Source: Omphiscola glabra
Taxonomy: Eukaryota; Mollusca; Gastropoda; Lymnaeidae
Reading direction: 5' to 3'
Length of the DNA: 64,000 bases
Assembly: GCA_964017045.1 (NCBI GenBank)
Contig: OZ024806.1
Span: forward strand, 27,187,503-27,251,502
In this document: positions 2,933 to 46,358 of the stretch, piece by piece
Numbering within the stretch: position 1 is the stretch's first letter
Layout of the letters: every line of letters begins with the position of its first letter
Program-made: the position numbers and the translations under genes
Notes under the pieces: model-generated
The model's database searches: none
The model's input: the letters and a program-made list of their open reading frames with translations, nothing else
What the model was told of the DNA's origin: nothing

Positions 2933-3001
2933 ATGTCGAGGAATACATGCGTCCTGCTTCTCTGCATCATTGGGACAGCGGTCAGCACTCCCGGCTTTCT
3001 G
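2933..3001 (+). CDS. Locus A leader exon (signal peptide)
   Basis: This 69-base exon encodes a 23-residue secretion leader (MSRNTCVLLLCIIGTAVS, predicted cleavage after the last Ser, then TPGFL). It is preceded by a 3' splice site (TTCACTTACAG) with exactly four bases (CAAC) between AG and ATG, and ends in phase 0 at CTG|GTATGC. The leader is related to those at 11786, 21616, 30702, 39038 and 44991: basic residue, hydrophobic Leu core, VTxV-like end, small residue. The start is chosen because it is the first ATG after the acceptor. It should splice to 4658. Exon calls are by eye; no RNA evidence. Confidence 0.72.
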
Positions 3002-3319
3002 GTATGCCACCAGTAGTTTTAAGTTAAAATGAATGTTGAAAAAGAGACCCTGCAAATGTCTTAATGCTTTTCAAATTCAGTTAATGAATCGATGGACCCT
3101 TTTGGAAAGGATATTGTTGTCATTTTTAAAAAAATAAGTCGAAGATTTAACGAAATAGACTGGATAAAGAAGTGTGATATTAAATGCGATAAATCATAAG
3201 CGATGTGTAAACAGATGAGAGGAACATTTCGTTTCGTCAAATTTCTTTTTGAACGCTCTATAGTAAAACAAAATAATGCGTTGGTGAAAAAGGCAGAGAC
3301 AGGTTAGGGTCATGATTAC

Positions 3320-3740
3320 AAGTTGCTGTTAAGGGATATGAGGCGAGAGGCTGGGGTGGAAGTCTCTGGCCGATGATTCTAGATACGAAGCCCTGAGAAA
3401 GCTGCTCCTAGGCAACCGTTTCGTCTCAGCTACTTCGCAAGCTATCTGATAGGTGGAAGACCACTGTAGAACCCCGTTCATAGGGCGTCCGATGCTTTCC
3501 CGGGATAGGTGGGGGAAGATCTTTGGACGTAATTTACCATCCCAACTCCTAGTAAAGTCGATCGTGGCCACTGCGTCTATGCGCAGTGTCGGGCCGACCG
3601 GGTGTCCTTCGGTCATGGCGACCCCCAGCATAAATCCCGATCCAGCGGACTCGGGTGGGGGGCGTCCTGGCTTCGCGTCAAAATACTCGTGCTTAAAAGG
3701 GGGGGGGGTGTTGCTTTGGGGAGGGCATAAAGAGTAATAG
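3320..3740. other. GC-rich island in locus A intron 2, unidentified
   Basis: About 400 bp of much higher GC than its surroundings, with a G-run near 3700. A 100-codon minus-strand frame (3329-3631) and an overlapping plus-strand frame cross it, but neither resembles a protein I recognise. A degraded interspersed repeat is the likeliest explanation. Confidence 0.4.
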
Positions 3741-4657
3741 CTCGACGGCCTGCTGACACCATTTTCTAATGTGACATTTCAATACGCTCAAAAAGAAAAT
3801 TGACGCAATATTTTAACGTGTGTACTGAAGAAAAAGATTCGACGGAATTTCGTTTAAACAAATTACCTAATACGCTTATTCCTCTTTTTAATTTACCTTC
3901 TTTCTACCTACACATCTGTGAACTTTGTGGCTTTGGGCCCTAATTTTGTTGTAGCCGCACGTGTCATCATACGCGTTTGATCACGGATGATGGCGTCCGA
4001 CTCATGGAGGGAAATGGTGAGAGCTGTAGAATTTTTAGTTGGGGTTGTTCGTAGGGTGTTAGAGGAAGGGCATACGGCAATTAAACTCGAATTAGACGCA
4101 GACCATCAGAGCTATAAAACACAGCAGTCCTTGTATCTAGTTTTTAGCTCTATACATAGGAAAATGTTAATTTATCTGAAGCGGTCTCCTGTTTGTTTTC
4201 GTTGTTTTAAAAATACGAGTAAATCATATTACTTTTGTCTATATTTAATAAGTGCAATGTTAAAACTAAACAAAAATAATTAAACATTTTTTTTTAAATT
4301 TGTTTTTTTAAAGTTCCATCATAGACGCGTTTTATTCACAAAGAAATAGAAACTCTACCGAAGGTTCTTTGAATGCATTACGCAAGGAGAATCTGTACAG
4401 AATATAATTTTTTTTAAAATACAAATACAAAATAATAATTAAAATCTCGTCTAAAGCTTTAGCTACATACTGTTTTCTACTACACTTCTGTACACACTTT
4501 CTTATGAATTTCATGAAAATTTAATTTATTTTTCAATTTTTAGTTATTTTACGATTGTCTCTGATAGACTGTCGTTTGCTTAATTATGTTTAAAGACCTA
4601 TTATAAAATGTAAATTGATTTTGTGATTGTCTCACGTGAATTACTCTTAATAAATAG

Positions 4658-5725
4658 TGGGGACACAATGAGCATGAAGGATTTGGGAAACCAGTTGAAG
4701 ATGCAGCAGCGACAGCAGCGACTGCAGCGACATCTGCTACAGTAGCAAGGCCAGCGAGAGTTGCAACACCAGCGACAGCCGCGACGCCGGCAACTGCGGC
4801 GAGGGTTGGTAGGGCTGCGACAGCAGCGACAGCAGCAACAGCGGCCACACCAGCAACTCCTGCATGGGTTAGAAGAGCCGCTACAGCGGCAACACCTGCA
4901 ACACCAGCAACTGCAGCGAGAGTTGGTAGAGCTGCGACACCAGCGACTCCGGCGACACCAGCAACTCCTGCAGGACGTAGAAGAGCCCTCACATCAGCAA
5001 CTGCGGCGACACCAGCAACCGCGGCCACACCAGCAACTGCGGCCACACCAGCAACCCCGGCGACACCAGCGACTCCGGCGACACCAGCAACTCCTGCAGG
5101 GCGTAGAAGAGCCCTTACATCAGCAACTCCGGCGACACCAGCAACTGCGGCCACACCAGCAACTCCGGCGACACCAGCAACTCCTGCAGGGCGTAGACGA
5201 GCCCTTACATCAGCAACTCCAGCGACACCAGCAACTCCTGCAGGGCGTAAAAGAGCCCTTACATCAGCAACTCCGGCGACACCAGCAACTGCGGCCACAC
5301 CAGCAACTCCGGCGACACCAGCAACTGCGGCGACACCAGCAACTCCTGCAGGGCGTAAAAGAGCACTTACATCAGCAACTCCGGCGACACCAGCAACTGC
5401 GGCCACACCAGCAACTCCGGCGACACCAGCAACTCCGGCGACACCAGCAACTCCTGCAGGGCGTAGAAGAGCCCTTACATCAGCAACTCCGGCGACACCA
5501 GCAACTGCGGCGACACCAGCAACTCCTGCAGGGCGTAAAAGAGCCCTTACATCAGCAACTCCGGCGACACCAGCAACTGCGGCCACACCAGCAACTCCGG
5601 CGACACCAGCAACTGCGGCGACACCAGCAACTCCTGCAGGGCGTAAAAGGGCAGCGCAACCACCCCGTCCAGCCATTCCAGCAACCTTAGCCACTTTAGC
5701 GACAGTACCCGTCCCTGGGAAGTGA
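4658..5725 (+). CDS. Locus A cargo exon: Ala/Thr/Pro-repeat secreted precursor with GRRR/GRKR sites
   Basis: The frame opens at TGG after a candidate 3' splice site (AATAAATAG, 4657) and joins the leader in phase 0, giving a predicted 378-residue secreted protein. After a short acidic start (WGHNEHEGFGKPVED) come repeats of ATPATP/ATPATA. Eight times the repeat ends in PAGR(R/K)R, with Gly codons at 4973, 5099, 5189, 5243, 5351, 5459, 5531 and 5639, and seven of these continue ALTSAT. Spacings are 126, 90, 54, 108, 108, 72 and 108 bases, all multiples of 18. Gly followed by a basic triplet is the classic signal for convertase cleavage and C-terminal amidation. The end is AQPPRP...PGK and a TGA. 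No Cys. Function is unknown: peptide precursor, mucus or matrix protein are possible. A 413-codon antisense frame (4549-5790) is a shadow of the repeat. Confidence 0.72.
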   Translation, partial: WGHNEHEGFGKPVEDAAATAATAATSATVARPARVATPATAATPATAARVGRAATAATAATAATPATPAWVRRAATAATPATPATAARVGRAATPATPATPATPAGRRRALTSATAATPATAATPATAATPATPATPATPATPATPAGRRRALTSATPATPATAATPATPATPATPAGRRRALTSATPATPATPAGRKRALTSATPATPATAATPATPATPATAATPATPAGRKRALTSATPATPATAATPATPATPATPATPATPAGRRRALTSATPATPATAATPATPAGRKRALTSATPATPATAATPATPATPATAATPATPAGRKRAAQPPRPAIPATLATLATVPVPGK

Positions 5726-5814
5726 TTACATAAGGAACTCATGTAATTGGGTTTGTCCTTACTAGTAAGTATATTTATCCGTGTGTTCATCTTAATGTAT
5801 GTGTGTTGTTACAG

Positions 5815-6101
5815 GGTGCTGGGTGGCCGAGTTGTCTAAACTGAGCAAATCTCAAGTTAATGGTCAAAGCCCAGTCAAGCAAAAAATACCACCAGCACCC
5901 CGGGTGGATGGGACTCGTTAACATTGGATGGCAACTCATCTAAGAGAAGGTAACTCTGAATTCAAAGATGGTGAGATGGAGTTCACGTGCGCCTAACAGG
6001 CAGCAGTGAGACCTCTCGAACATCGAACTTCAGAGCGCCTTGAGCATGCTACCATAGCATGGAATGAGCGTTATATAAGTACTCCAATCAATCAATCAAT
6101 G
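5815..6101 (+). mobile_element. tRNA-derived SINE, copy 1
   Basis: Begins GCTGGGTGGCCGAGTTGTCT, which resembles the 5' half and A box of a tRNA-Leu/Ser gene, and ends in (AATC)n. The tRNA-like head is nearly the same as the minus-strand copy at 9455-9755, but the B-box region is partly deleted and the 3' half is different, so this is a different subfamily. Confidence 0.72.
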
Positions 6102-9100
6102 TGTTTGTAACACTGTGTCTGTAATAGTGTGTCAGCAATGATGGGTCTGTATAAATGTGCCTTTAGAAAATTAGTTGAATACTGATGCGTCTGAACGTAC
6201 GTTTCCGAGCTGTCTCTAGATTTTTAAGACTGTTTGGCAATGTTTGTATGTGGTGATGTGTGTGATGTATGATGGTACACACATATTCTGTAGAAAAACT
6301 AAGCATTGTCAGTTATATAAAACTATCGTTAGAGTGCAACGAGATGTAGTAACTAACTAACAATTTTGGAAGGTGTCGGGACACTCTTTGTCATGAATCA
6401 TTTTAGGGAAAATCAAAATTATTTCATTTTTTTTTTTTTAAACTTAAGCTTTCAGATATAAAAATTTAGAATTAAAAAAATATGTTTCTTTTTTAAATTT
6501 ATTCTTTTATGGTATTTAATGAACATTTTTTTAATTATAAAATGTTAAGTGAATGTTTATAATGAATTTTATTGAATAACAGTGTGTATAATTTTCTTCA
6601 AAAAGTAATGTGAATACCAGAGGGCTGGTGTTTAAAATAAAATCACTAACATGTATATAGTTTAATATTTTTCTCTCTTTTATTTACAGATATAATAGAA
6701 ACATAAGCATGTACTTGATGTGTCCTTGTGTGCATTGCTGATGGTGGGAAAATGCTTCACTGTCTATTAAAAACAAAGATTTTATTAGAAAAAAAAAAAT
6801 AATTGAGCAAAATAAATCCTGCCTGTTGGCTAAAATTTTGAATCAAAATGTATTAATTTATTTATTAATAGATTTAAACTGTTATATTTTACATGTGTTT
6901 TACATCAAAGAAATATGTAGAAATGTAGCATTTAAAAAAAATAATAATAATGTTACATACGTTTTTCGGCCTGTCAGACATTTGTTCGATATCATATTAT
7001 ATTTTTGTCTGATGTAAATATGTTTGCATGATGTCAAATTTGTTTGTAGATGTCAAGTTTGCTAATTTGTGTTGAATAATGTTAATATTTTATCTCCGTA
7101 AGATATTTCAAAAGCTACAAAGCCTTTAGGAATAAAGAAATTAAACATAACCGTTTGAAGCCATCATTTATGGCGCAGCAATATTCACTGTTAAGGAAAT
7201 GATACATTTTAAAATTACTTTTCTTGCCACTCAAAAATCCGTGAGATTTATTTTCTTCTCCATATGTGCAGCCTAATTTCCGACATCACAATACCACGTG
7301 AGAACGAGGCAGTCGCGTTCTCTTTCCATTCAAAATCCGTCAGGTTTTCTCTTCCACACGGTGTATTTTTGTAGTCCTCCCGTGACTCACTCAAGACGAG
7401 GCATGCGCGTCTGTGTGGTTGACACTGTTGGAGAGTACCACAAGAGGTACAACTATGGCCAAATGACATAGTCGCATGCGCAAGATAAAACAAAACAAAA
7501 AATGCCACTAATTCATTTGCAAAATATTCCCAAAAATTTCATACAATACTTAAAACTATTACATAAACAATGCAGACAAGCTGGCAACCTTAAGCACATA
7601 AAACATGACAGTAATATAGATGATGATCTGAAGATAAGATGATGTAATACATTATTAAATATAATGTTCTAATTAAGTGTACACCCAAAAAGTGTGAGAG
7701 AGAGAGAGAGAGAAAGAGAGAGTGTGTGATAGAGTCCGTTTGAAAAAAAATACAATGATTCTCATATCATGGGACGTTAACTCCTCCAGCCATCGACCTG
7801 CTCCATTCACTCTGGATAACCATACTCTTTTTATTTCCTTCTTGATGTTAACCATTCTTGTGTCCAATCTGCACAACACTACAACCAACTGAAAGGTGGT
7901 TCACGTACAAATGAGATGACTCTACATTGTGTCATTTATCCCGAGTTTGTTTACTAATTTTGTTTGCAAGGTGATCCTCCATTTAAGTTGATAATTTTCC
8001 TTCGGCTGATTATTGGTTGAATCAACAGTCGTTGATATTTTTTTCAATGTCATATCTACATAATAACACTTGACAAGTTGCGGTGACCCACAGCCACGAG
8101 TATGCCTAGATGTTGATCAATTTTATATTAAAATAGCGTCAGTATATCTAAGCATGAATCATAGTAAGTTCATGTAGCTGTTATGTAGTCAATGTGATTG
8201 ACAATAAAATTAAAATGAAATGTATACAATTACAATCACGGTGAACATTTGTACAACAACAACAAAGAATATATAAATTTAAAAAATATAAATATTTATA
8301 ATAAATCTCAAACAATTATACCACTACATCTGCCTAAAGCCGAGAGGGTTGTGATCACCAGATTGTCCAAGATAGCTTTTTCTCTCTTATTGTTATGTAA
8401 TGATTGAAGAATTAAATACTTATGTTTTGGTACTGCTCTTCTCTTTTTTTGAGGGCCATAAGAACGATGCATTAATTATTCTGGCTCATATGTTCTTTAC
8501 CTTATTGTCAGTTTTAGAATCCATAAAATGTTAACTATTTACATTTATAATATATGTGAATCAATTTAATATATATTTTTAAAAGAGGAAAAAAAGTTGT
8601 TTTTTTTAAATTTCGAAACATTTATTTTTGTTTTGCTTGAAATGTATTATTTTTAAAATAGGAAGTCAAATAACCTTATAAATTAAAATTAAAATAAAAT
8701 CCATCTTTTAATTCTAAGAGGATCGAACTGAAAGACTTGAGATACATTTTACGGTCACTGCGCATCTACAAGTATTGTTCCTCTTTACTTTGATGCAGTA
8801 AACTTTAAAAAATGGCAAAATGACTACTAAAAAATAAACACTAGAGAGCAACACCTATGTATCTTTGGTGTCGTCAAACTATATCTCTATCAGAATCGTT
8901 CAGCTGACCTCATCAAACTTGGCCACTTTTCCACGTCCACTTCTATACGTGCGATAATAATTATCAACTAAGAATATGGTTTCCTCTGTTGAGAGACATT
9001 TTTCAGAAATTATTAACTTTCTTTTCAGTACTTAGAACAAATGCTTGCTAGATTTATGACCTATGGACCATATTAGAGAGTTACATTAGGTAAATTTTGG

Positions 9101-9450
9101 CGCACTCTCGAGCTGGTCATCTTAATGCATAAGGCCTCTTCAATGGGTAAAACAATAAATATTTTGTTTCTGGATGGATACGAGTTATTGTGTATGAATG
9201 GTAAAAAGATGTGAATAATTATGGATGAATGTAAATAAATTGGATGAATGTGATGAATGTTAAAAAATGTGAATAAATGATGATGTATGTGATAAATGTG
9301 GATGTTTGTGAATAAATGTGGATATGTGTGTGTTTTACCGATGTTACCAATGTTTGCTGGACCTTAGGATGTGAGATGTTTACTATAACGCTACTGGATA
9401 TATATGTTGTTTTTTGTTGTTTTTTTGCTGGCATCCGTCACGCGTCACAA
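6102..9450. other. Gene-free AT-rich stretch
   Basis: The first 200 bp contain degenerate GTGTNTGTAATA-like repeats resembling those downstream of loci E and F. AATAAA at 6636-6641 could serve as a distant polyadenylation signal for locus A. The rest, including a GA-rich microsatellite near 7695-7725, shows no supported exon, RNA gene or transposon ends. Confidence 0.45.
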
Positions 9451-9454
9451 GGTG

Positions 9455-9755
9455 ACGATGGTATGGAAATCGCAGGACGAATCCACAAGGCCTGGGATTA
9501 TTCTTCTGGTTCCCAACAGCAAGTCTCTCCACGTGGCTGGATAATCCCAAAGGAGCATCATGTGGATGATACAGCTTGGCGTCGCATTTCCGGGTTTGAA
9601 TTCAGAGTTGCCTTCTCTTAGATGAGTTGCCGGTAAGCGGGTCCCATGCACCCGTGCTGGTGGTGTTTTTCCTTGACTGGGCTTTGGCGGGGATTGAACT
9701 CCAGACCATCAGCTTGAGATTTTCTTAGTTTAGACCACTCGGCCACCCAGCACCA
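9455..9755 (-). mobile_element. tRNA-derived SINE, copy 2
   Basis: On the minus strand it starts GGTGCTGGGTGGCCGAGTGG (tRNA-Leu/Ser-like A box), followed by GGTCTGGAGTTCAATCCCC (B box), a middle part shared with copy 1 (GGCAACTCATCTAAGAGAAG) and a unique 3' part. The internal RNA polymerase III boxes look intact. Confidence 0.78.
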
Positions 9756-9869
9756 GGATATATATGTATGGCTGTGTATATCATATGAACTGACATATAA
9801 ACAGATGGTCTTGACTGGAAACAGATCCGAGTGTGGCGGGAATGAAACCTCAATCAAGATTCCCATCGA

Positions 9870-11340
9870 AGACTAAAGCGTTTATTGAAGTATTGGACAA
9901 TGTCAAGGAAACAATACGAGGTAAATGGGTCCCTGTCAGTTTCTGAAAATATCATTTTTATGGATATTTAATGAATAATTGAGCTCAGTATAGGATTGAA
10001 ATGACAAAGGGTAAGTAGTAAATGGTTATTCAGAACACTTGATGACAAGGAGATTGTATTTGCTGATTACGAGCAGCTATGTGAAATAACATGGGAGATA
10101 ATTCACACGATTGTCACATTTGTTGACGTCATCAGGTGGAATTCGTTTAATTAATTAACTTTTAGAATGCACAATTGTTTAAATTGGCTATAAATTAAGC
10201 TGCAAAAAAAAATTAACCTGTTATGTTCACCACATTTCTCAACGTTACATTCAAGTGTTATTAATTCGTTATTCATATACAAAAATTAATAAGATATATT
10301 TGCAAGTATAATTTTTGTATGCATTTTAAATATATTTCTCTTCTGGTGCATCCTGCTTCCTCTTCTAAACTGCAAGAAGCTCTATATGTTTTATATTAAT
10401 TGTTGTTGTTCGTCCGTCAAATCGATTAGGACCATCCAGTTATCCGGTTAGTACTGAGTGAAAAAAGACTGTCACTCAGCGAGCTTCATGAGTGACGGTT
10501 GAACTCCGGTAAAAAAATTATTTCATGGGCATGTAACTACTATTCGGTGTTGTTACTGTTCGTGCTCCTCGTACACGCAGAAGGCTCCATGCGTAGCGTC
10601 TGAACTTGGGGAAAAAAGCCGATATTTTAGTTACACTGTGAATGTTATTTTTTATATCTTTGTTATAAAATGAACATTATCTTCTGTGTCCACGGGTTTT
10701 TGCACACCGTAATCTCTATTCCAGGATCTGGAAAGTACCTGTTCCTATCTGTGGGTTATTTCTTGACACAAACGGTTGACAAGGGCAATGCACTCTTACT
10801 ACGAAACAGGGCAGCAGATTTCAATGCATGTTATAGAAAATGAGAAGTTAACTCTATCTTTTTGTAACACATGGACCCACCGGGTTTGATCTCAAAATAC
10901 CCGGACCCGGGTGTAAAAAAACAACAACCACACCCTTGCTAATCCCTCGTATTTAAATATTATACCAAATCGTGACATGCTTTAACCGTCACTTGTGAGC
11001 CAGAATAAAATTATGTTTCATTTCACTGCATCTGAGGTCGGCGAACCAGGGCCAAGTATCCCTAGTGGGGCTAGAAAGAAAATGTATGTGTGTGGAGCGC
11101 TCAATAAACGGAAATAAATTTATTTAAAATTGATGCAGATTATAGCAAATGAGAAGTTGGCTCTTTCTTTCCTAACACTTGAACGTTCAGGGTAGTTTTG
11201 TCTAAAACCTGGATCCGGTAAAAAATAAAAACTTATCTGTTCATGGTTGACCGACTAATCTTTGCTCTTGTTTAGTTAAGAGGCTCTAATTTTTCAGTGG
11301 AACGATAACATGTGTACATGTATGTGTATTTTGTTAATGT
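9870..11340. other. Gene-free stretch with two diverged repeat copies
   Basis: No exon supported. Segments around 10830-10920 and 11130-11240 share the order GCAAATGAGAAGTT, CTTT(C)CTAACAC, then an (A)CCCGG-like or CCTGGATCCGG core, and resemble the reverse complement of 36580-36670. They are probably copies of one dispersed element whose ends I cannot place. Confidence 0.4.
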
Positions 11341-11347
11341 TTTGGTG

Positions 11348-11444
11348 TATAAATAGACTTAGTTTATCATAATAAAAAAATTGATCATAAGCATTTCTTT
11401 GTATTAAACCTAATCAAAATGTAATTAAACTAATACATCGTTTG
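11348..11444 (+). promoter_or_regulatory. Proposed TATA box and untranslated first exon of locus B
   Basis: TATAAATA at 11348-11355 lies 97 bp before a donor (CGTTTG|GTAATA, exon end 11444), the same TATA-to-donor distance as in locus A (98 bp). The donor is weaker than in A or D. Inferred, no transcript support. Confidence 0.4.
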
Positions 11445-11705
11445 GTAATACCTGGGACAAAAATGTCTTAGTTAGTACATTAAAACTAATCACAATGTAA
11501 TTAAACTAACACATCGTTTGGTAATACCTGGGACAAAAATGTCTTAGTTAGTACATTAAAACTAATCACAATGTAATTAAACTAATACATCGTTTGGTAA
11601 TACCTGGGACAAAAATGTCTTAGTTAGTACATTAAAACTAATCACAATGTAATTAAACTAATACATCGTTTGGTAATACCTGGGACAAAAATGTCTTAGT
11701 AAGTA
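11400..11705 (+). repeat. 76-bp tandem repeat carrying a candidate 5' splice site
   Basis: Four near-identical 76-bp units (ACATCGTTTGGTAATACCTG core). Each carries the same donor-like site, with GT at 11445, 11521, 11597 and 11673. The array sits between the TATA box and the leader exon of locus B, so it looks like tandem duplication of the first-exon 3' end. Confidence 0.88.
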
Positions 11706-11785: not shown

Positions 11786-12109
11786 ATGTTGAAGTTGATG
11801 TGCACCCTTCTTCTCATGGTCATTGTGACCTCTCAACCGTTTCGTCTTAAAGAGTCCAAAAGCATTAATCGCCACACCAATCCACCAAGCCGTCACAACG
11901 AAACTTATCAACCCGATCAACGCCAGCAGTCTGATGAACCCATCAGGCTCCTTGAGGAGACGAAATCCAAGCCACAGAAACCTTATAATAAACCTTACGA
12001 ATCCAATAGACAGTATCCGGCAAACAGTCAGTATCCACCCAATTATGTGTACACGCCGAATCAGAGGTACGCACCCAGACGACCGTGTCAGCCACTTGAA
12101 AACCTTCAG
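11786..12109 (+). CDS. Locus B leader plus Tyr/Pro/Gln-rich exon
   Basis: 108 codons from ATG 11786 to a phase-0 donor (CTTCAG|GTACGT). The ATG is again four bases (GGAC) after an AG (GAACAG, 11781); an in-frame ATG at 11747 would add 13 non-hydrophobic residues and lies in the intron by this model. The leader MLKLMCTLLLMVIVTS is cut before QPFRL. The mature part is hydrophilic, with one N-glycosylation sequon (NET), then a Tyr/Pro/Asn-rich end (for example NKPYESNRQYP, SQYPPNYVYTPNQRYAP) and one Cys. Unlike the other leader exons this one already carries about 90 residues of cargo. Unspliced, it would stop at 12128-12130. Function not recognised. Confidence 0.7.
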
Positions 12110-12130
12110 GTACGTCACTTGACAGTTTGA

Positions 12131-14903: not shown

Positions 14904-15242
14904 TTTGGAGCCTATGTTAACAAAACACCTTACACATCTGGGAAAGCGACGGTAGTGACACTAGCCACGGGAGCGACAGCAGCAACCTTAGCAACCACGG
15001 CAACGGCAGCAACAGCATCGACAGTAGCAAACGCAGCGACAGCAGCAACGGCAGCGACATCAGCAAACCTAGCAGCAACAGCAACGGAAGCAACTGCAAC
15101 GACAGCGGCAACTGCAGCTTCCAAACCGTTGCCATTACCGAAGCGAAGGCAGACTGATCTTCAACGTCAGCAAGAACAAGAACGTCGTCGTCTGCTGCAA
15201 ATTCGACGAAAGTTTGAACAACATGCTCTTGATTTGATCTGA
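14904..15242 (+). CDS. Locus B cargo exon: Ala/Thr-rich repeat with basic Gln/Arg-rich tail
   Basis: The open frame starts at TTT just after a good 3' splice site (CTCGTATTATAG, 14903) and joins the exon at 11786 in phase 0, giving a predicted 220-residue protein. Residues: FGAYVNKTPYTSGKATVVT, then about 55 residues of Ala/Thr triplets (ATAATLATTATAAT-like), then PLPKRRQTDLQRQQEQERRR and LLQIRRKFEQHALDLI, stop. The Ala/Thr part resembles the cargo of locus A; the tail is predicted helical, basic and Gln-rich. AATAAA signals lie at 15544-15549 and 15591-15596. No enzyme or domain recognised. The tail resembles the exon at 16684. Confidence 0.66.
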   Translation, partial: FGAYVNKTPYTSGKATVVTLATGATAATLATTATAATASTVANAATAATAATSANLAATATEATATTAATAASKPLPLPKRRQTDLQRQQEQERRRLLQIRRKFEQHALDLI

Positions 15243-20228: not shown

Positions 20229-20696
20229 TTATGGTCTAAAACGTGCTGATCGCCTAGAAGGTGTTGTAATGGTGGCAACGGTTGGTGTTCCAGGGGTTGG
20301 TGGCGTCGGAATAGTCGTAAGAGTTCCTATCGTTAGCAATCGTATTGTTCCAGGTGGTGGTAGTGTCTGTAGTGGTCGAGGCGGTGGTAGTGTCTGTAGT
20401 GGTCCAGGTGGTGGTAGTGTCTGTAATGTGGGTAGTGTCCCCATGGTTCCAAGCGTTGGTGTACCTGGTGTCCCTGGCGTGCTAGGTGTGCTAAGTGTTG
20501 TTAGAGTGGAAGATGGCGGCCTTCTAGGTCCACCATGTCCTGGTGGGTCCCTGCTACTCCCTTCAGTCGGTCTATTTAACTGTGAAGGCCCAGTGGACGT
20601 TGGTGGCCTTCTAGGTCCCCCATGCCCTGGTGGGTCCCTGTTACTCCATTCTGTCGGTCTATTAAACCGTGAAGATGGAGTAGACGTCATAGGAGG
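20229..20696 (-). CDS. Locus C cargo exon: Pro/Thr-rich secreted repeat protein
   Basis: On the minus strand an open frame starts at CCT just after a strong 3' splice site (ATATTATTCCCAG) and joins the leader at 21616 in phase 0; the predicted protein has 178 residues. It starts with two imperfect ~29-residue repeats (NRPTEWSNRDPPGHGGPRRP and NRPTEGSSRDPPGHGGPRRP), continues with [18 protein letters not shown], three LQTLPPP-type repeats and PTPPTPGTPTVATITTPS, and ends RRSARFRP. No Cys. AATAAA (20222-20227) overlaps the stop region. The Thr-rich parts are likely O-glycosylated (inference). The plus-strand ORF across it (20269-20706) is a shadow. Confidence 0.75.
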   Translation of the reverse strand, partial: PPMTSTPSSRFNRPTEWSNRDPPGHGGPRRPPTSTGPSQLNRPTEGSSRDPPGHGGPRRPPSSTLTTLSTPSTPGTPGTPTLGTMGTLPTLQTLPPPGPLQTLPPPRPLQTLPPPGTIRLLTIGTLTTIPTPPTPGTPTVATITTPSRRSARFRP

Positions 20697-21615: not shown

Positions 21616-21690
21616 CCGAGCGAATTGAGAGCTGACCATCGTCACACTCACCACAAGAAGCAGGATGCGGAGACATCTGGTCATGGCCAT
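21616..21690 (-). CDS. Locus C leader exon (signal peptide)
   Basis: On the minus strand MTRCLRILLLVVSVTMVSS (cleavage predicted before QFAR) ends in phase 0 at CGG|GTAAGT. From the second ATG (21684) the exon codes for 23 residues in 69 bases, exactly the size in loci A and D; the first ATG (21690) adds Met-Ala. A 3' splice site (CTAATTTTCAG) precedes it, but here the AG is about 19 to 25 bases from the ATGs rather than four. The DNA core CCTGCTTCTTGTGGT and ACGATGGTCA is shared with the other leaders. Spliced partner: 20696-20229. Confidence 0.74.
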
Positions 21691-27265: not shown

Positions 27266-27742
27266 TTATTGGTTTTCCAGGTGTTCCAGGTATGCCACCT
27301 GTTGAATGTTTTGTGTTGATACTTTCGGAGTGCTGGGTGTTCCTGGTGTAGATGGTGTTGTAAGCGTTGAAACAATCGGTGTACTAGGAGTACCGGGTGT
27401 TCCAGGTGTGGCAGGTGTTGAAAGTGTTGATACTATAGGTGTACCAGGAGTACCGGGTGTTCCAGGTGTGGCAGGTGTTGAAAGTGTTGATACTATAGGT
27501 GTACCAGGAGTACCGGGTGTTCCAGGTGTGGAAGGTGTTGAAAGTGTTGATACTATAGGTGTACCAGGAGTACCAGGTGTGGAGGGTGTCGTAACATTTT
27601 CAATTCTCGGCGTACTGGGTGTCCCAGGTGTCGTAAGTGTGGAAAATATCGGTGTTACAGGAGTACCAGGTGTAGATGGTGTCGCAAAATTTTCTGTTGT
27701 CGTTTCAGTAGATTCTGATGACGTGGTAGATATAGGTAGGGA
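27266..27742 (-). CDS. Locus D cargo exon: [13 protein letters not shown] repeat protein
   Basis: On the minus strand the frame begins at TCC after a good 3' splice site (TGATTTACTTTCAG) and joins the leader at 30702 in phase 0; 158 residues here, 181 in all. It opens with a Thr/Ser/Glu stretch ([20 protein letters not shown]), then 60-bp repeats encoding [20 protein letters not shown]. There is no Cys and almost no charge. The C-terminus ([15 protein letters not shown]) is out of character: the GTPGTP-type sequence continues in another frame ([10 protein letters not shown]) right after a CAG|GTGGCA site, suggesting either a further splice or a frameshift. Probably a heavily O-glycosylated secreted protein (inference). 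Confidence 0.73.
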
Positions 27743-30701: not shown

Positions 30702-30770
30702 CTGGACGGTTCGAGAGTTGGTCATTGTCATGGTGACCAGCAGAAGCAGGGTGCTGAGAAACCGTATCAT
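30702..30770 (-). CDS. Locus D leader exon (signal peptide)
   Basis: Minus-strand 69-base exon encoding 23 residues: MIRFLSTLLLLVTMTMTNS, predicted cut, then RTVQ. A 3' splice site (TTTCTCTGACAG) lies four bases (GAAA) before the ATG and the exon ends in phase 0 at CAG|GTATGT. DNA core CCTGCTTCTGCTGGTCA is the same as in locus F. A longer frame reaching ATG 30812 is rejected because it would read through the acceptor. Partner exon: 27742-27266. Confidence 0.78.
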
Positions 30771-38845: not shown

Positions 38846-38849
38846 GCGG

Positions 38850-38975
38850 CGAGTGTGATAGTGTTTGGTGTGGGTGTGGTTGATGGGCGTGTGGTTGGTG
38901 TGGGTGTGGTTGGTGTGGGTGTGGTTGGTGTGGGTGTGGTTGGTGTGGGTGTGGTTGGTGTGCATGTCGTTGGTG
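38850..38975. repeat. 15-bp repeat, Thr/Pro-coding on the minus strand
   Basis: About seven copies of GGTGTGGGTGTGGTT. The minus strand reads TPTTPTPTTP, like the cargo exons of E and F, ending at a stop at 38809. There is no minus-strand leader exon next to it, so it may be simple repeat or a stranded inverted cargo exon. Confidence 0.75.
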
Positions 38976-39037
38976 TTGGAAGATCGCTTTGCATCCCCAT
39001 TATTAACCTCTGCTTATTCTGTTAACCCATAAGGACC

Positions 39038-39133
39038 ATGTTGAAGATTACAAGCGTCTTGCTTTTGCTCGTCATTGTCACGATGGTCAACTCTAGTTAC
39101 ATACCACACATACCACATGGGTCACACCTTGGG
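39038..39133 (+). CDS. Locus E leader exon (signal peptide plus His/Pro spacer)
   Basis: 32 codons: MLKITSVLLLLVIVTMVNS, predicted cut, then SYIPHIPHGSHLG, ending in phase 0 at GGG|GTGAGT. The ATG is four bases (GACC) after an AG (AACCCATAAG, 39033). The leader DNA is very close to that of locus F (AAGATTACA, TGCT..TGGTCAT). An unspliced frame would continue to 39223. Partner exon: 41241. Confidence 0.76.
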
Positions 39134-39789
39134 GTGAGTTTTTCAGTCATTTCTTATATGTATATATATTTTTTGGCGACTGCACATTCTATGCAGGGAA
39201 TATTATTAATCAATCGACAGTAGCCACATTGTCGGGACAAAGGCATCCCATGCAACATAAACAATGGTGTAACTGGCTCTATTACTTCACTACTTCTTTA
39301 AAAATATGGAATTTAATAGTAACATTATCTAAACAAGTTATTATTTAAGAGTCATTGCTTTTAAATCCCTTCTTAAAGTGCATTAAAATCCTTTTAAAAC
39401 GTTGTTACCCCCCTCAACGCATGACATTTCTAGTAGAATTTTATTTGCATATTAAGGTTGTTGTTTTTTTTTTTTTAATTGAATTTTTTTGTAGGTTTTT
39501 TTCGGGATACAGGACGATTTTTTGTAAACGTTGTCTTATATTCCGCCTGGTCTAATAATATCGATCGCGATTCATTGATGCCTAATATTCCGATGGCGAC
39601 TCTTTGATGGTCACAACATGGACCAGTGTGATTCAAAACACTAAAAGGTCATTGTACATTATGGTGTTGTTTTTTGTGACAGAGCAACTTGATCCACATT
39701 GAAATTGATACATGAATACATTTGGCAGGAAATTATTATCCTCCGCAAAAAGCCCACAGCAAAGTTATCTAAGAAATAATATCCTCCCT

Positions 39790-40148
39790 GTGGCTTGCTC
39801 TAGCTCAGACTGCCTCTCTAGCTCAGACTGCCCCTCTAGCTCAGACTGCCTCTCTAGCTCAGACTGCCCCTCTAGCTCAGACTGCCTCTCTAGCTCAGAC
39901 TGCCCCTCTAGCTCAGACTGCCCCTCTAGCTCAGACTGCCTCTCTAGTTCAGACTGCCTCTCTAGCTAAGACTGCCCCTCTAGCTCAGACTGTCCCTCTA
40001 GCTCAGACAGCCTCTCTAGCCCAGACTGCCTCTCTAGCTCAGACTGCCTCTCTAGCTAAGACTGCCCCTCTAGCTCAGACTGCCTCTCTAGCTAAGACTG
40101 CCCCTCTAGCTCAGACTGCCTCTCTAGCTCAGACTGCCTCTCTAGATT
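39790..40148. repeat. 18-bp minisatellite in locus E intron
   Basis: About twenty copies of AGCTCAGACTGCCTCTCT with TCTCT/CCTCT variants. An 85-codon plus-strand Ser/Cys/Asp frame (39712-39969) reads through it and is probably meaningless. Confidence 0.92.
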
Positions 40149-40149
40149 C

Positions 40150-41240
40150 CTCGTTCACTCTCCGCACAAAAATCGTTGTCTCGCCTTTATCACCAGAATT
40201 TCACGCACCCGTCCATGACTTGAAAGGAGTTCACGATCGTTCCCATAACCCAATTGTCACCAATCACAGGACACACCGCATCGCTGATTCCATGACCTTG
40301 ACACGCATTTTTGGGCGAATTATTATGACATGTTCATGTGTATGGAGCCATCTTATGGGGTTTTTAGGGATTGCGATGATCACCTCTGTAACCACACACC
40401 GTCTTGTGGCATCTGTAGTGCATTCAATTAACCAATCGTTTCCTTTGTTAACTTTAATAATCGATTATGTTGTTTTGAGAATTGTATGACTGCGGCTGTT
40501 CATTGAATGTACCGTGCTACTTTTCCGGTACATTCTAGTGCCTTGACATCCCTGGTAAGGTTAGCCAGGAGTGAATACTTTTTAAGGAATGTATTTTTGT
40601 TTCATTGGCGGTGATTTTATTGTTGCATTTTTAAGGTGTTGACGCACAACTTACGGAAACTAAAATGGGATGAAGTATTATGGATTCAATAGCAGCAGCT
40701 TCCACTTCATTACTGCTGAAAATTCACGGGGTCTTCAGAGCTCACTACATGCGCTGCATGGCTCAAGACTTGGGCTGCAGAGATTACCTCAGGCTCGGTT
40801 TAAGAACTCTGTTCTATACAATAGCTTGCATATAAGGTAATAAGAGGAGAGACGGCAATCAAGAGAGCACAAAGGAAATTAGTAAAACAAAGTAAGGTTA
40901 AACCTGCAAAAAGGAACGCAACAAAACAACGAACGTGTTGGCAGGAAGCCTTGGTCAGCGAAAAAACAGAATAAAATTTAAAAAAATTGCTTTTAGCTGA
41001 GAAGTAGTATCCTAGAGGGCAGCAAAAAAAAGTGTGACATAACGTAAGTGAGGGAGAGATTAAATAGGAAAGAGGGAAAGATACGAGAAGTAAGTCCACT
41101 GCGATATGTCGTGACGTGGAGGGCGGGGCTAGGTTCAAACTGTGACTAGAAAGAGACATGGCGTTCATGTATATTAGGATTGAAATACGAATCATTAATG
41201 ACAATGAAGATTGAAATGTGAATCACCATTTTGTTTTCAG
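40150..41240. other. Locus E intron, no exon seen
   Basis: Mixed-composition intron. A hydrophobic 134-codon minus-strand frame (40800-41204) lacks any homology I recognise and lies antisense to locus E. Confidence 0.4.
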
Positions 41241-41432
41241 ACCCCTGGGACACCCGGAACACCCACCACACCAACCACACCAACCACACCAACCACGCCA
41301 ACCACTCCTGGGCTCGTAGGAGCACATGGAAAGCATTCTCCCCACGGGATGCCTGGCTCACAGCCTGAGCCGAGAAGACGACGGACCACCGCGGACCCAC
41401 ACCACCACCACAAAGACAATAACCAGGTATAG
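41241..41432 (+). CDS. Locus E cargo exon: TPTTP repeat, basic and His-rich tail
   Basis: After a strong 3' splice site (ATTTTGTTTTCAG) the phase-0 frame reads [11 protein letters not shown] with further TTP repeats, then GLVGAHGKHSPHGMPGSQPE, RRRR and ADPHHHHKDNNQ. It can end in two ways. The codons GTA TAG stop it at 41432 (95 residues in all), or those same bases are a donor (CAG|GTATAG, exon end 41426) leading to the exon at 42073 (109 residues). The four-Arg run is a candidate furin site and the His cluster could bind metal (both inference). No Cys in this exon. Confidence 0.74.
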   Translation, partial: TPGTPGTPTTPTTPTTPTTPTTPGLVGAHGKHSPHGMPGSQPEPRRRRTTADPHHHHKDNNQV

Positions 41433-41439
41433 CAAGCTT

Positions 41440-41800
41440 ACCTGTAGCAATTACGGATGTCTTAATATGGGCATATCCTAATCTTTAAGTACTCGAGTGT
41501 GTGCACCTACGTGTAGGTGTACTAATGTATCGGTACTATTGTGCCAGTACTATTGTAACTGTACTCATGTTCTAAGATTTCCGTGCAAAAATGTGTGTAC
41601 TGATGTGTTGGTATTAAATTTTCAGTTATAGTGTGACTGTTCTTATATATTTGCATACATTTGCCTTACTTCTTTGTTGGTACATATATTATTATCTGTG
41701 TACTAAAGTATGGGTACTGTATGTGTTTTACTCATGTATTATACACAAAAATGCGTACTTTTTTTTTGTTTACAAATATTTTTAATGTAAGGGTCAGTAA
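41440..41800. other. Degenerate GTGTACTAATGT repeats
   Basis: Loose ~20-bp repeats of the type GTACTAATGTGT(C/T)GGTACT. Similar sequence follows the cargo exon of locus F (46390-46680), suggesting E and F are duplicates that extend past the exons. Confidence 0.55.
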
Positions 41801-42072
41801 TAATGTCTCCGTTTTTATGTCACTGTAAGGACACGATGGTAATAAAGTGGATTTTACACTTGTATTTGTACTAGTATGTTTGTTCTAGTGTTTCTCTATT
41901 CGGGTTTCTGTTCTAGGGTTTATGTACTAATATCCTTTTGGATCACGCGATCTCATGAAATAAAAGACTTTTATTCTTAGCTTTCGGGTCATGTGATCTA
42001 CAAGAATCCCAGCATGTCATCTTAAATATTTTTTTTTTAAACTCGATTTTAATTTCTTTTTTTCCGTTTCAG

Positions 42073-42120
42073 GATTCCGAAGATTTCCATGGAGTCTTGA
42101 GGTGTGTGTGGGAGAATTGA
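42073..42120 (+). CDS. Candidate last micro-exon of locus E
   Basis: A strong acceptor (TTTTTTTCCGTTTCAG) opens a phase-0 frame of 15 codons, DSEDFHGVLRCVWEN, then TGA. It would follow the donor at 41427. AATAAA at 42465-42470 could end the transcript. The tail has one Cys and one Trp. A comparable short exon follows locus F at 47676. Confidence 0.5.
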   Translation, partial: DSEDFHGVLRCVWEN

Positions 42121-44070
42121 TGAGATTTCTGTACGGTGTCACCTAATAATACGTCTTGTAAAAACGCAACATTTGTTTTCAACTACTCACCCACAGATGT
42201 GTCGAAGTGGCTTCATTTTAATCTTCATGGATTCAACTTGTTTTCCAATTTAAAACAATTTGATGAAATCATTTTTTTTGTTGAAAAAAAAAAAAGAATT
42301 AAAAAGAATTGTATAGCAGTTCAATTATTTTATTTTACTTTTTTTTTTCCCATTTACTTTTATGTCTTTTCATTACCATCGTTCACAATATACAGACGTG
42401 TTGTTTTTTTCATTAAGTTCTTAAGGCCTGGAAAGAACTGGGATGCGTTTTCAAAATAATTAGTAATAAAGAAAATAATAATGTTCAGCCAGATTTCTTA
42501 ACGTTTATTTACTATGTATAAACAAATAGCAACTAAGATTATGAAATACAATTTATTAGAAGAAATTGTAAAATGATGTGTTTTTTTTCATAACAAAAAC
42601 CCCCGTGAATCTCCTAGGTATTTATCAGTTTAGTAGATCAGTTTAACTCGAGGAAAACTAGAATAGAGTAGCTTTGTTCTAAGCAGTTTTCTCTTAACAC
42701 TTCATGAATATTCAAATTAATCTGATACAAAAAATTTTGTGTAAATGATATAACATATTTTTAGCTGTAATCGAAGGTACACAAAATACAAATGCAAACA
42801 TTTCGGCGAAGTTCCTTTCATCTGTACAACAAAACACACAAAAACAACACTTATATATAACATATAGAAATTTAAAAAGAGGGACTATTAAATCCTAAAG
42901 TGAATGCAATCAAAGTTGACAAATTGATGAAAAGTGTTAAACCGCCTCAAGATAAGTTTAGAAACAGAGAATGTAAGTACAATACAAGTTATATAAAAGG
43001 TTTGTTCATAAAAAAAATATGTATGTACTTTCACAATTGACATTGCGTGAATCTTGTACTGAAAGTGCAAAGACGGGATAGATGGTGCCCCGGTTGCCTA
43101 TGCGTCACTTTGAGTCGCCTGTGAACCTGAGGCCCCTGAACAAGGCAAGAGGTTTTGAGTCGAAATTTGAAGAGTCAAATATAAACATGCTGCCCAAAGA
43201 ACACGATGATCATGATCATATTTAAAAGTAGACAACAGACAAAGTCTGAGTTTGACGAACTATTAAATAAAATCCTAATTTTTTTTAAAGAAACTAACTT
43301 TTTTTGAACTCAAAAGTATATATTAATTATATGTATACATGATCTGGTTTAGATTTAATTGCACGTAAACGTGAACACTGTTTTAATAAAATTATTTTTG
43401 TTTATTTTCTATTTTAGATATAAAATAATAAATTCTAGTATGCCCAACAACAGCAATAACAGAAACATATGTCTGTGTAAGTGGAAAGACATAAATCTAG
43501 CTTGCTAGTTAATTAAAGCAAGTAAAATTATTTTCAACGGAACAAGATGGCGTCAACAAAAAAAAAAAAAAAAATGCCGTTTATTTAGAAGTTTAAATTA
43601 TTTACGAGACAAAATAACTTCTATAGATATGAAAACATCATGTAAACAACATTCCGGGGTTGGTCGGAGATTAACGTCACAGAAAATTAAGTTCCATATT
43701 GGAGGTTCCCAAACCATGAAAATGGTCCCTGGGAAGTTGCTTTTTCCTGATAGCTGGGCTGCGAAGTGAAAACTACAGGATTTTTCCTAGGGCAATTGCT
43801 ACAATTTTACATAGCGCACCTTGGAAATCATAGATGCAGAAAGGGCACAAAGATTTTTTTAATGCAATTTCTATCTTATATAATTTATTATTTTCCTTAA
43901 TGGTAGACGCTTCATTTCAGAGTACATGTTTTGTTTTAAATGAACTCATTAACCCCTCCTGCAATAACTGACAAACATAACGAACTATTTTAATGGAATC
44001 TATTAATACCGTTAATTGGGGATTTGACTTATTAATAAAGTGATGCGTGTTTGCCTATCCCTCCAAAAAT
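42121..44070. other. AT-rich stretch between loci E and F
   Basis: Probable 3' untranslated sequence of E up to about 42490, then AT-rich DNA. 42778-42850 shares a motif with 34468-34530. No further exon supported. Confidence 0.45.
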
Positions 44071-44072
44071 GC

Positions 44073-44206
44073 TATAAATTAAACTGGAAATATTTTTTGC
44101 AGCGTTAGAAAATATACATTGCAGTATTAAATAGGCTTTTTAAACGAACATTCCTTTGCGTTTCAAGGTATATTTCATTTGATTTTTGTGACAATACATT
44201 TAATTG
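44073..44206 (+). promoter_or_regulatory. Proposed TATA box and untranslated first exon of locus F
   Basis: TATAAAT at 44073-44079, then a donor AATTG|GTAAGTG with exon end 44206. Spacing and donor type match those of A, B and D. A second TATA-like site (44872, TATAAAAG) close to the leader exon is an alternative start. Confidence 0.38.
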
Positions 44207-44523
44207 GTAAGTGTATTAGGGGCGTAAGCTACATCTTCACCACCTGGTTGGTAAGCAGCCTCATGACTAACGGTTAAAAATAGTTCAATTTAATGGTTGA
44301 GATAACTTTTATTTTAAAACAACAACAATAACGAAATATAAGTCTAACACCTTCGTTTATTTATTTTCAATATAAATTTATAAAGTGAATTATTTATGTA
44401 ATTTTTAGACGTAAATTTACTAATAACACAACTGTACGCGCATACAAGTAATTCTATGTAACATCCTTGTAACATCTAGATTTACTTTATCTAATACATT
44501 TTTTTTTTTGCAATTGTATAGGT

Positions 44524-44729
44524 CAGTGATCGGCAAAGCGTGGCTTGCGAGCCGCATGCAGTTTATTAGCGACCTGAGTGCGGCTCGACCAGTCGACCAC
44601 TAATCGGTTTTGACTCCGAACAACGTGGTTATCGACAGGTTCTTGCAAACAAATTTGGCTCTCAAATTTTTTAAAATCGTTTTTCCGCTGATTTTCGGCT
44701 CTTTTGACTGATGAGTTTGCCAACCACTG
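44524..44729. mobile_element. hAT MITE (CAGTGGTCGGCAAAC family), copy 1
   Basis: 206 bp from CAGTGATCGGCAAAGC to TTTGCCAACCACTG, flanked by GTATAGGT and ATATAGGA (6 of 8 identical). The same family lies inverted at 52261-52439. Inserted between the proposed first exon and the leader of locus F. Confidence 0.8.
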
Positions 44730-44990
44730 ATATAGGAATCAAAGTAGTTTTAAAACAAATATGACAAGAGATATACACTATATTGTATACTCGACGTGTG
44801 AACTTTTTATCAACAAAGTTTTTTTTTTTTTTTAAAGTTTAGTTTAAATTATAAAATCAATCGAATGGTATATTATAAAAGTTTAAAAATCCAACAATAA
44901 ATGGGGCTAGAGCTTGTGGGGAAGGGTCCTTGTCAATACATAATTTACAGTGTTGACTTTACAGTGTTATCATATTTACTTTATAGGACA

Positions 44991-45047
44991 ATGTCCAAGA
45001 TTACAGGCATCCTGCTTCTGCTGGTCATCGTTACGACGGTCATAGCG
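44991..45047 (+). CDS. Locus F leader exon (signal peptide)
   Basis: 57 bases encoding 19 residues, MSKITGILLLLVIVTTVIA, ending in phase 0 at GCG|GTATGT exactly where signal peptidase is predicted to cut. The ATG is four bases (GACA) after an AG (ACTTTATAG, 44986). It is the cleanest example of the family layout: one exon is the signal peptide and nothing else. An in-frame ATG at 44901 would need to read through the acceptor. Partner exon: 46152. Confidence 0.8.
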
Positions 45048-45104
45048 GTATGTAACCATTTAGGGTTTTTTTTTGTTTTTTTTTGTTTAATGCTCAATTC
45101 TTTG

Positions 45105-45620
45105 TAGGACATTTGAGTGTGTCACTAAGTCTGGTGCTACGTTATATTATTTATTGGTCAATGCTTAGTGTGTCACTAAGTCTGGTGCGACGTTATATTA
45201 TTTATTGGTCAATGCTTAGTGTGTCACTAAGTCTGGGGCGACGTTATATTATTTATTGGTCAATGCTTAGTTTGTCACTAAGTCTGGTGCGACGTTATAT
45301 TATTTATTGGTCAATGCTTAGTGTGTCACTAAGTCTGGTGCGACGTTATATTATTTATTGGTCAATGCTTAGTGTGTCACTAAGTCTGGTGCGACGTTAT
45401 ATTATTTATTGGTCAATGCTTAGTGTGTCACTAAGTCTGGTGCGACGTTATATTATTTATTGGTCAATGCTTAGTTTGTCACTAAGTCTGGTGCGACGTT
45501 ATATTATTTATTGGTCAATGCTTAGTGTGTCACTAAGTCTGGTGCGACGTTATATTATTTATTGGTCAATACTTAGTGTGTCATTAAGTCTGGTGCGACG
45601 TTATATTATTTATTGGAATA
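45105..45620. repeat. 51-bp minisatellite in locus F intron
   Basis: About ten very homogeneous 51-bp units (GTGTCACTAAGTCTGGTGCG then ACGTTATATTATTTATTGGT). The sense strand frame stays open (SLVRRYIIYWSMLSVSL repeats, 180 codons). It begins 60 bp after the leader donor. Confidence 0.93.
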
Positions 45621-46151
45621 AATGAGGGACATTGTAGAATGATCGTTACATTTAATACATCAACAACTTTTTGCTAATGTTAAAATGTATTGATTTCTTC
45701 TAATATTTGCCTGGTAATTCCGACATCAAGTAGTTTCCAATACCTCGTCAATGTTCGCTTGAAAAATACTTTCAACCATTTTGGTTGAACCTTTTCTAGT
45801 TTAAAGTTGTGTCCTATAATAGCAGGCGTTTATGTTTATATTTTTTTAATGATCAATACATTTTTCAAAAGTCTCTTATGTTAATGTATGGTATCTTGCT
45901 TATCTGATGTAACTTATGTTATGTATCCTATATTACGTATCTTATGTATCTTATCTTATATATTCTATACTACTTATCTTACTTATATTATCTTACATAT
46001 CCCTTATTACTTATCTTATTTATATTATCTTATATATCCAATCTTACTTATATTTTCTATTTTATCTTATAAGCTAAATTTGAATTATCCGATTCCAAAT
46101 AGGCATTTAAAAAAAAAAAATTGTCACGTGACTTATGCTTTGGACTTTCAG

Positions 46152-46358
46152 ACACCACCCACACCAACCACACCGACCACACCGACCACACCGACGACAC
46201 CAACTACACCTGGGACCCTGGGAACACCTCCAAGGGCGGGAACGCCATCCAGACAGCGTCCAGGCCAACCACCAACACCATCCAAGCAGCTGACCCCTCT
46301 CTCACCTAACCGCAACGTGACCGCTCCTTCCCGCCCGATCCGCCCACCCCGTCCATAA
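46152..46358 (+). CDS. Locus F cargo exon: TPTTP repeat secreted protein
   Basis: A strong 3' splice site (GCTTTGGACTTTCAG) starts a phase-0 frame of 68 residues: TPPTPTTPTTP with further TTP repeats, GTLGTPPRAGTPSRQRPGQP, PTPSKQLTPLSPNRNVTAPS, RPIRPPRP, then TAA. With the leader the protein is 87 residues, so the mature form is about 68 residues, very Pro/Thr-rich, basic and Cys-free, with one sequon (NVT). The start resembles the cargo of locus E. Short Pro/Arg-rich secreted peptides of this kind can be antimicrobial or matrix proteins, but nothing here decides that. The antisense GVVGV frame is a shadow. Confidence 0.8.
   Translation, partial: TPPTPTTPTTPTTPTTPTTPGTLGTPPRAGTPSRQRPGQPPTPSKQLTPLSPNRNVTAPSRPIRPPRP

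Follow-up and report, generated by a model that had tools for sequence, protein, structure and literature searches.

Introduction

What kind of gene family lies behind a run of short, mutually similar signal-peptide exons, each followed at some distance by a low-complexity exon? The question is raised by a 64,000-nucleotide stretch of contig C14 of Omphiscola glabra (C14:27187503-27251502; hereafter, the window), in which a first-pass annotation had placed a family of six loci (2933, 11786, 21684(-), 30770(-), 39038 and 44991), each joining a homologous leader exon to one of several unrelated repetitive exons (cargos). The genome comprises 744,774,263 bases in 37 contigs, C14 being 32.6 Mb long, and the sequence that we scanned was 344 kb of C14, i.e., the window and 280 kb fetched around it. 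The genes of the window are called a to f, and members outside it are labelled by the number of kb that separates them, on the left, from position 1 of the window (e.g., m25, with its ATG at -24697). Our results suggest that the window is the right-hand part of a single cluster of about 20 members covering at least 221 kb. We hold it somewhat more probable than all other readings together that this is an exocrine family of threonine-triplet secretory proteins, probably O-glycosylated, part of which would be convertase-cleaved polyproteins with likely amidated products.

Results

Leader exons and the extent of the cluster

To begin with the leaders, a leave-one-out weight matrix was run over all window positions on both strands, and in 6/6 runs the left-out leader ranked sixth, right behind the five training leaders. 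The matrix made from all six gave its lowest member 66.7 bits versus 6.8 bits for the best other place in the window, and the homology proposed for the six loci is thus borne out. The DNA core said to be common to them was recovered as an 18-mer (with up to three mismatches) at four window places, expected 0.03, which are leaders b, d, e, and f, but leaders a and c were missed. By eye, i.e., with no predictor, a basic n-region, a hydrophobic core, and small end residues seem to be present in the leaders. All six loci gave two-exon models, from DNA alone, with GT..AG introns of 919-2959 nt in phase 0 and a low-complexity second exon that follows an AG and is open to its stop, including the junctions 3001/4658 and 45047/46152. 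Leaders ending at phase-0 GT donors were seen in a, c, d, e, and f, whereas the first exon of gene b runs on to 108 codons, about 90 of them, rich in Q, N, P, and Y, lying between leader and donor.

When the matrix from the six window leaders was applied to the first 264 kb, seven additional leaders were found at 57-71 bits (reversed-sequence maximum, 11.1). The final scan used a matrix retrained on 14 of the 16 strong leaders and returned those 16 at 56 bits or more and three weak leaders at 21-23 bits (reversed maximum, 8.3); the two strong leaders that were not used in training score 59.5 and 65.5. One of the weak leaders, -167507, has its highest score when shifted by 3 nt from its own ATG. 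A twentieth candidate, -130176, is like the -117054 leader in a different reading frame. The 344 kb therefore hold 16 strong leaders, three weak, and one whose frame is altered, distributed over 221 kb, so that the six loci of the first-pass annotation become about twenty. All candidates lie within -175727 to 44991, most of them left of the window, and none was found in the 119 kb scanned to the right of 44991. On the left, where the scan reached C14:27007503, a leader pattern built from the six window leaders has no match on C14 for about 9 Mb beyond -175727, although the pattern itself misses 5/20 candidates, and the cluster may thus end near there. Searched against the whole genome with 0-1 mismatch, the pattern gave 13 matches, 11 of which are in the cluster (the six pattern sources and five others), with one on C1 and one on C13; with up to two mismatches there were 87, i.e., 15 in the cluster and 72 outside. 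Some of these 72 are tandem or low-complexity copies and some are like signal-peptide starts, and all six that we translated resemble generic signal-peptide starts.

The leaders also agree in their synonymous codons. Among 16 leaders, 702/1105 same-residue pairs have the identical codon, compared to a permutation mean of 418 and maximum of 476 (1000 permutations), an example being codon 9 (CTT) of the 19-codon leaders. Position-wise agreement of this kind is a feature of conotoxin signal sequences as well, and among the present leaders it may be explicable by common descent alone. Ahead of the ATG, an AG occurs within 9 nt in 17/18 leaders and [CT]AG in 14/18, versus a background rate of 0.21 for the latter. 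Since this is the pattern of a splice acceptor, the family's genes probably start with an exon of 5' untranslated region (5'UTR), the intron behind it reaching almost to the ATG. A tree of these short leaders leaves 12/15 inner branches open, and cargo class does not cluster on it (4 changes versus a shuffled mean of 4.5-4.6), which speaks neither for nor against cargo swapping. In comparisons of the upstream and downstream flanks of the six window genes (30 pairs versus 60 shuffles), only the AT-rich upstream regions of a and e were clearly above the shuffles, while a/c upstream, e/f upstream, and e/f downstream were marginally so.

Threonine triplets in the cargo exons

An open, Thr-rich, phase-compatible exon lies downstream on the same strand of 18/20 candidates (m157 being a weak case), and these 18 exons make up our cargo set. 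Thr-to-Thr agreement at lag 3 was 0.50-0.90 in 13/13 cargos computed (m9, m80, m130, m157, and m176 were left out), versus 0-0.40 at lag 1 or 2. The description of the cargos as unrelated is therefore to be abandoned, since a Thr period of three is common to 6/6 window cargos, TPG/TPT triplets are common to cargos c to f, and gene a has a diverged copy outside the window. Six frames of the 344 kb were searched for loose tracts, i.e., runs in which five or more Thr follow one another at every third residue and the positions between them are Ala or Pro. All 53 tracts fell inside cargo exons on the right strand, compared to seven tracts in the reversed sequence, and 14/18 cargos contain them, those without being c, m45, m95, and m157. 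The cargos of -130176 and -175727 were themselves recognised via tracts, the prior count having been 48/52 in 304 kb. Strict (T-[A/P]-A)4+ tracts were confined to cargo exons (19/19, in 6 cargos), with 0 in the reversed sequence. In 6/6 window cargos it is the third codon position that agrees least between triplets (no non-coding array was compared); for gene a, agreement at three-codon distance is 0.66, 0.72, and 0.23 at positions 1, 2, and 3. This is the pattern expected where amino acids are what is kept.

Two classes of cargo can be distinguished. The AAT/ATP class consists of (T-A-A/T-P-A)n, which in some members is divided by spacers (R-x-G-R or G-R-K-R) into units. Thus, m69 has 888 residues with 38 R-[LPV]-G-R spacers separating AATLATAATPATLATIP-like units, gene a has eight GRKR/GRRR spacers, and m25 is AAT nearly throughout; the C-terminus AIPATLATLATVP-x-PGK is common to a and m45. 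The TPT/TPG class (c, d, e, f, and m59) is mucin-like and almost devoid of T-[A/P]-A; each of its cargos has 0-5 cleavage-like sites, and in no case does Gly come before the site. In four members (b, -8797, -58744, and -167507), the leader is followed by a stretch rich in Q, P, Y, and N. For leader -79984, a nearby (PTPVSV)n tract was tried as cargo and dropped for an AAT exon 1071 nt downstream. At -130176 to -127934 (+), the cargo frame (AATFPTAATFAT)n is intact while the leader frame is altered relative to the -117054 leader, and this is possibly a dying gene.

A whole-genome comparison with the gene a cargo gave at least 159 matches (114/8819 candidates scored). Among the matches listed, only m69 and m25, besides a itself, reach 66-69 percent; the others listed have 25-48 percent identity, many in very long frames, and triplet-like composition is therefore not unique to the cluster. 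Very long open repeat frames with roughly 31-39 percent identity to this cargo, possibly giant mucins, were seen at C1:35.82-35.86 Mb (4645 and 5831 residues) and C12:27.93-27.96 Mb.

The AAT/ATP repeats have the chemistry of the antifreeze glycoproteins (AFGPs) of polar fish, to which several members bear a striking resemblance. Could these members be independently evolved AFGP polyproteins, cut at basic spacers, that bind ice and keep body fluids or eggs from freezing? The share of Thr located in T-[A/P]-A is 85 percent in a, 89 percent in m25, and 80 percent in m45, and the longest unbroken runs count 11 tripeptides (a), 10 (m25), and 12 (m9). In the parts of the literature available to us, the AFGPs of gadids are T-A-A/T-P-A polyproteins with Arg/Lys cleavage sites (PMC8622921), four triplets are reportedly sufficient (PMC4340617), and a tick protein has already been termed AFGP from its AAT repeats (PMC3302814). 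However, T-[A/P]-A accounts for at most 6 percent of Thr in 6/18 cargos (c, d, e, f, m59, and m157), runs of four or more occur in just 6/18 (a, m25, m9, m117, m69, and m87) and are missing from the 12 others, including m45, and four members carry the Q/P/Y/N-rich extensions. Moreover, known AFGP linkers are without Gly in the passages of the cited work, and ice binding does not follow from the repeat alone. We consider an antifreeze role unlikely.

Basic spacers, charge, and cysteine

R-x-x-R or dibasic sites number 84 across the 18 cargos. In 58 cases (summed by hand) Gly stands before the site, and Gly followed by basic residues is the arrangement that gives rise to an amide. Three cargos account for 53/58 of the Gly-preceded sites, i.e., m69 (38/40 of its sites), a (10/12), and m45 (5/6); m9, d, and m59 have no cleavage-like site and the remaining cargos have one to five. 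Net charge is +75 in m69, +31 in a, and +11 in c and m45, while d, m130, and m9 are acidic. Cysteine is absent from 15/18 cargo exons, the exceptions being m176 (3 Cys), m9 (2), and m157 (1).

A signal peptide followed by 40 basic sites, nearly all of them after Gly, as in m69, could also be read as a peptide-hormone or neuropeptide precursor with dozens of amidated copies (...IPRL-amide from m69, ...ARY-amide from m45). The Gly-basic pattern is strong in m69, a, and m45 only. We judge this reading very improbable, given that d, m59, and m9 are without any site and that low-complexity repeat bodies in about 20 diverging neighbours are unlike conserved signalling ligands. The charges, together with a multigene organization, a conserved signal peptide, and variable cationic cargo, would suit antimicrobial or microbiota-controlling peptides that are convertase-released and fast-diversifying, like the myticalins. 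As far as the sources were accessible, the ATG of myticalin genes, too, is immediately preceded by a 5'UTR intron (PMC5577615), and the tick IAFGP is credited with antimicrobial activity (PMC7238099). Nevertheless, the basic residues of m69, a, and m45 are in the spacers and not in the repeats, cargos d, m130, and m9 are net acidic, and no amphipathic pattern was noticed, though no search was aimed at one. An antimicrobial role thus seems to us improbable, if less so than a hormonal one.

Genes a and m25 and the arguments for and against a secretory gene family

Judged by their sequences, a and m25 are diverged segmental copies. Their donors, acceptors (AAATAG in both), first cargo residues, and upstream tandem repeats correspond; the leader exons are identical at 47/69 positions, the best match between cargo exons is 68 percent, and 778/1656 intron bases of a are in matches of about 66 percent. 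The sequence of a 40-base array upstream of gene a matches upstream of m25 too. Although only about two-thirds identical, both copies keep donor, acceptor, and open cargo frames, of 355 and 239 codons, and since the frames are kept at this divergence, genes are favoured. The contrary view is that signal-peptide-like fragments and repeat tracts were spread by segmental duplication, or are dead-gene relics, in a region full of minisatellites. The near-equal divergence of a/m25 exons and intron and the candidates with an altered leader frame or no cargo (below) would fit such an origin, but leader and cargo share a strand in 18/20 candidates, none of the 18 cargo frames is interrupted, each window cargo varies most at third codon positions from triplet to triplet, and the two-thirds identical copies are both open. 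A non-genic origin therefore appears to us the least probable of the alternatives.

Several observations do weigh against reading the cluster as an exocrine family of secretory genes. In the a/m25 pair, conservation is not higher in the exons than in the intron, only frames and splice sites being kept. That the leader is conserved above its surroundings has only moderate support: constraint is moderate across 16 leaders (mean nonsynonymous difference, pN, 0.28 versus synonymous, pS, 0.44), and the a/m25 leader exon is not more conserved than alignable intron. Candidates -111975 and -167507 are without convincing cargo and the leader frame of m130 is altered; some members of the family may be dead. 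Among the 84 cleavage-like sites, 26 lack Gly, with 0/8 Gly-preceded in the TPT group, and Gly-basic sites are numerous in just 3/18 cargos, where they are mostly copied within repeats. Acceptors are weak in m87, m157, and m117, and in those of the ATAG type, which end in -ATAG after weak pyrimidine tracts (a, m25, m45, m80, m9, m130, m176, and b), though the common ending may lend these some support. Furthermore, the choice of cargo exons was partly guided by T/P/A richness near leaders, and the 72 genome-wide leader-pattern matches outside the cluster exceed the 33 of the reversed pattern, so there may be distant relatives, or ordinary signal peptides similar in sequence, elsewhere.

Database searches were negative within their scope: a Pfam scan of 11 family proteins (one of them as first exon only) gave none above cut-off, Rfam (gathering scores) and tRNA scans of the window gave no match, and residues 1-60 of m25 found no homolog among 5.8 billion proteins, a set that showed no sign of covering this lineage.

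Gene models and surroundings of the window

The models of the six window genes are listed in Table 1.

Table 1. Exons of the six two-exon gene models (window positions).
Feature	Position	Strand	Remarks
Gene a leader exon	2933..3001	+	MSRNTCVLLLCIIGTAVSTPGFL; donor GTATGC; same donor in copy at -24697
Gene a cargo exon	4658..5725	+	(T-P-A/T-A-A)n, GRKR/GRRR-ALTS spacers; stop 5723-5725
Gene b first exon	11786..12109	+	108 codons; donor GTACGT at 12110
Gene b cargo exon	14904..15242	+	Degenerate AAT repeats, then Q/R-rich basic tail; stop 15240-15242
Gene c leader exon	21616..21684	-	Donor GTAAGT
Gene c cargo exon	20229..20696	-	PPGHGGPRRP units, TPG/TLP triplets, basic tail
Gene d leader exon	30702..30770	-	Donor GTATGT
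Gene d cargo exon	27266..27742	-	Repeats; without R-x-x-R or dibasic site
Gene e leader exon	39038..39133	+	Donor GTGAGT
Gene e cargo exon	41241..41432	+	Repeats; tail with RRRR and HHHH
Gene f leader exon	44991..45047	+	Donor GTATGT
Gene f cargo exon	46152..46358	+	TPTTP repeats, Pro/Arg tail

Minisatellites are dense throughout the window (1-64000), with 101 overlapping tandem-repeat rows whose units mostly differ by place. Two long uninterrupted frames, 53929-55728(-) and 60450-62177(-), resemble signal-peptide, membrane-anchored proteins. The product of the former has no Pfam family, while that of the latter has a weak Ig match (Ig_3, E 1.2e-6, just below cut-off) and found no homolog among the 5.8 billion proteins and no match among solved structures. 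To the right of the window, window-relative 93313-161710 (L014-L021) holds several long single-frame rhodopsin-type receptors, 7tm_1 being present in both that were tested. These receptors and the Ig-like protein, like the size of the genome and its predicted introns, are in keeping with an animal genome.

Discussion

The sequence gives good support to the claim of a secreted, duplicated, and diverging family of repeat proteins that have a leader exon in common, with the amendment that their cargos are not unrelated. From the leaders and the phase-compatible open exons we infer that the proteins are secreted and that leader and cargo are spliced together. With Thr at every third residue, a polyproline-II-like rod would have one face lined with Thr side chains, on the model of AFGPs, for which about three residues per turn are described in the part of the source available (PMC5274654), and O-glycans would be attached there. 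Some AAT/ATP members, chiefly a, m69, and m45, would be cleaved by convertases at R-x-G-R, G-R-K-R, or G-R-R-R, and the Gly then exposed would be amidated, so that repeated short glycopeptides are released, while the TPT/TPG group (c, d, e, f, and m59) would remain as short mucin-like proteins. The most likely role would be a mucosal or glandular secretion that is lubricating, adhesive, or protective, with diversification via slippage and unequal exchange. Repetitive, possibly amidated glycopeptides are accordingly a prediction for the secretions of this animal. Annotation readily overlooks genes of low complexity whose first coding exon is tiny.

A more daring possibility, which we regard as quite unlikely, is that the cluster is an independent invertebrate AFGP polyprotein cluster, its T-A-A/T-P-A rods convertase-cut and amidated, that arose from or beside a mucin-like secretory family that is still adjacent. 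If this were true, the path from a mucin-like secretion to an ice-binding glycopeptide would become visible. A single cluster in which AFGP-like as well as mucin-like triplet genes use one leader exon would offer a natural series for the origin of repeats, their expansion, and the gain of convertase sites.

Most conopeptide superfamilies have a mature peptide built on a cysteine framework, and a shared leader with divergent cargo in a multigene family is also known from amphibian skin peptides. The first-pass annotation had likened the present family to conopeptides, and the general layout, i.e., shared leader, divergent cargo, and multigene organization, is indeed alike, so far as the source shows (PMC10561478), but the cargo here is low-complexity and 15/18 cargo exons are Cys-free. 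AFGP polyproteins, the glue and new-glue genes of Drosophila, and mussel myticalins are closer parallels. As described in the portion of the source available, myticalins share with the present family a conserved signal peptide and a hypervariable cationic repeat region, and their 5'UTR intron before the ATG and their family pseudogenes have a probable and a possible counterpart here, respectively (PMC5577615). They differ in having signal and mature peptide in one exon, a Lys-Arg (KR) site, and an acidic tail, whereas leader and cargo exons are separate here and inspection of the family proteins by eye showed no acidic tail behind a KR site.

The Drosophila Sgs and new-glue genes are alike in signal peptide, Thr-rich or mucin-like repeats, clustering, and copy changes near repeats, and the ng genes, with an Ala/Thr-rich middle between signal peptide and end, also in their Arg/Lys-rich C-terminus (PMC10835880, in the sections available). 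In contrast, the Sgs intron is in phase 1 inside the signal peptide, whereas here it is in phase 0 after it, and the C-terminal Cys motifs described for Sgs are incompatible with 15/18 Cys-free cargo exons. Among the 11 family proteins, three matched Pfam New_glue at 11-13 bits (E 0.09-0.36) versus a cut-off of 31, and eight had no match to it.

In the literature found, AFGP triplet polyproteins are reported, in the passages available, from two fish groups, and an AFGP defined by repeat content from a tick; a non-exhaustive search of open-licence literature yielded no account of such AFGP-like clusters of triplet genes from any other invertebrate. The tick protein, IAFGP of Ixodes scapularis, is described as having AAT repeats and a cold-protective effect, and is like the present proteins in coming from an invertebrate and in its signal peptide, AAT repeats, and predicted O-glycosylation (PMC4340617, PMC3302814); compared by description, it differs from a cluster of about 20 genes whose cargos fall into two classes. 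The gadid and notothenioid AFGPs, as far as the source could be consulted, share with the cluster a signal peptide, Thr-Ala/Pro-Ala tandem tripeptides, a gene cluster, and variable codons between repeats, as well as, in gadids, cleavage at basic residues (PMC8622921). Compared by repeats alone, the fish proteins differ from a cluster in which Gly stands ahead of many basic sites and TPT/TPG and Q/P/Y/N-rich members coexist. The gadid-type layout, i.e., a signal peptide and basic sites between repeat blocks, is seen here in m69, a, and m45, whereas m9, d, and m59 have no such site and the other cargos one to five.

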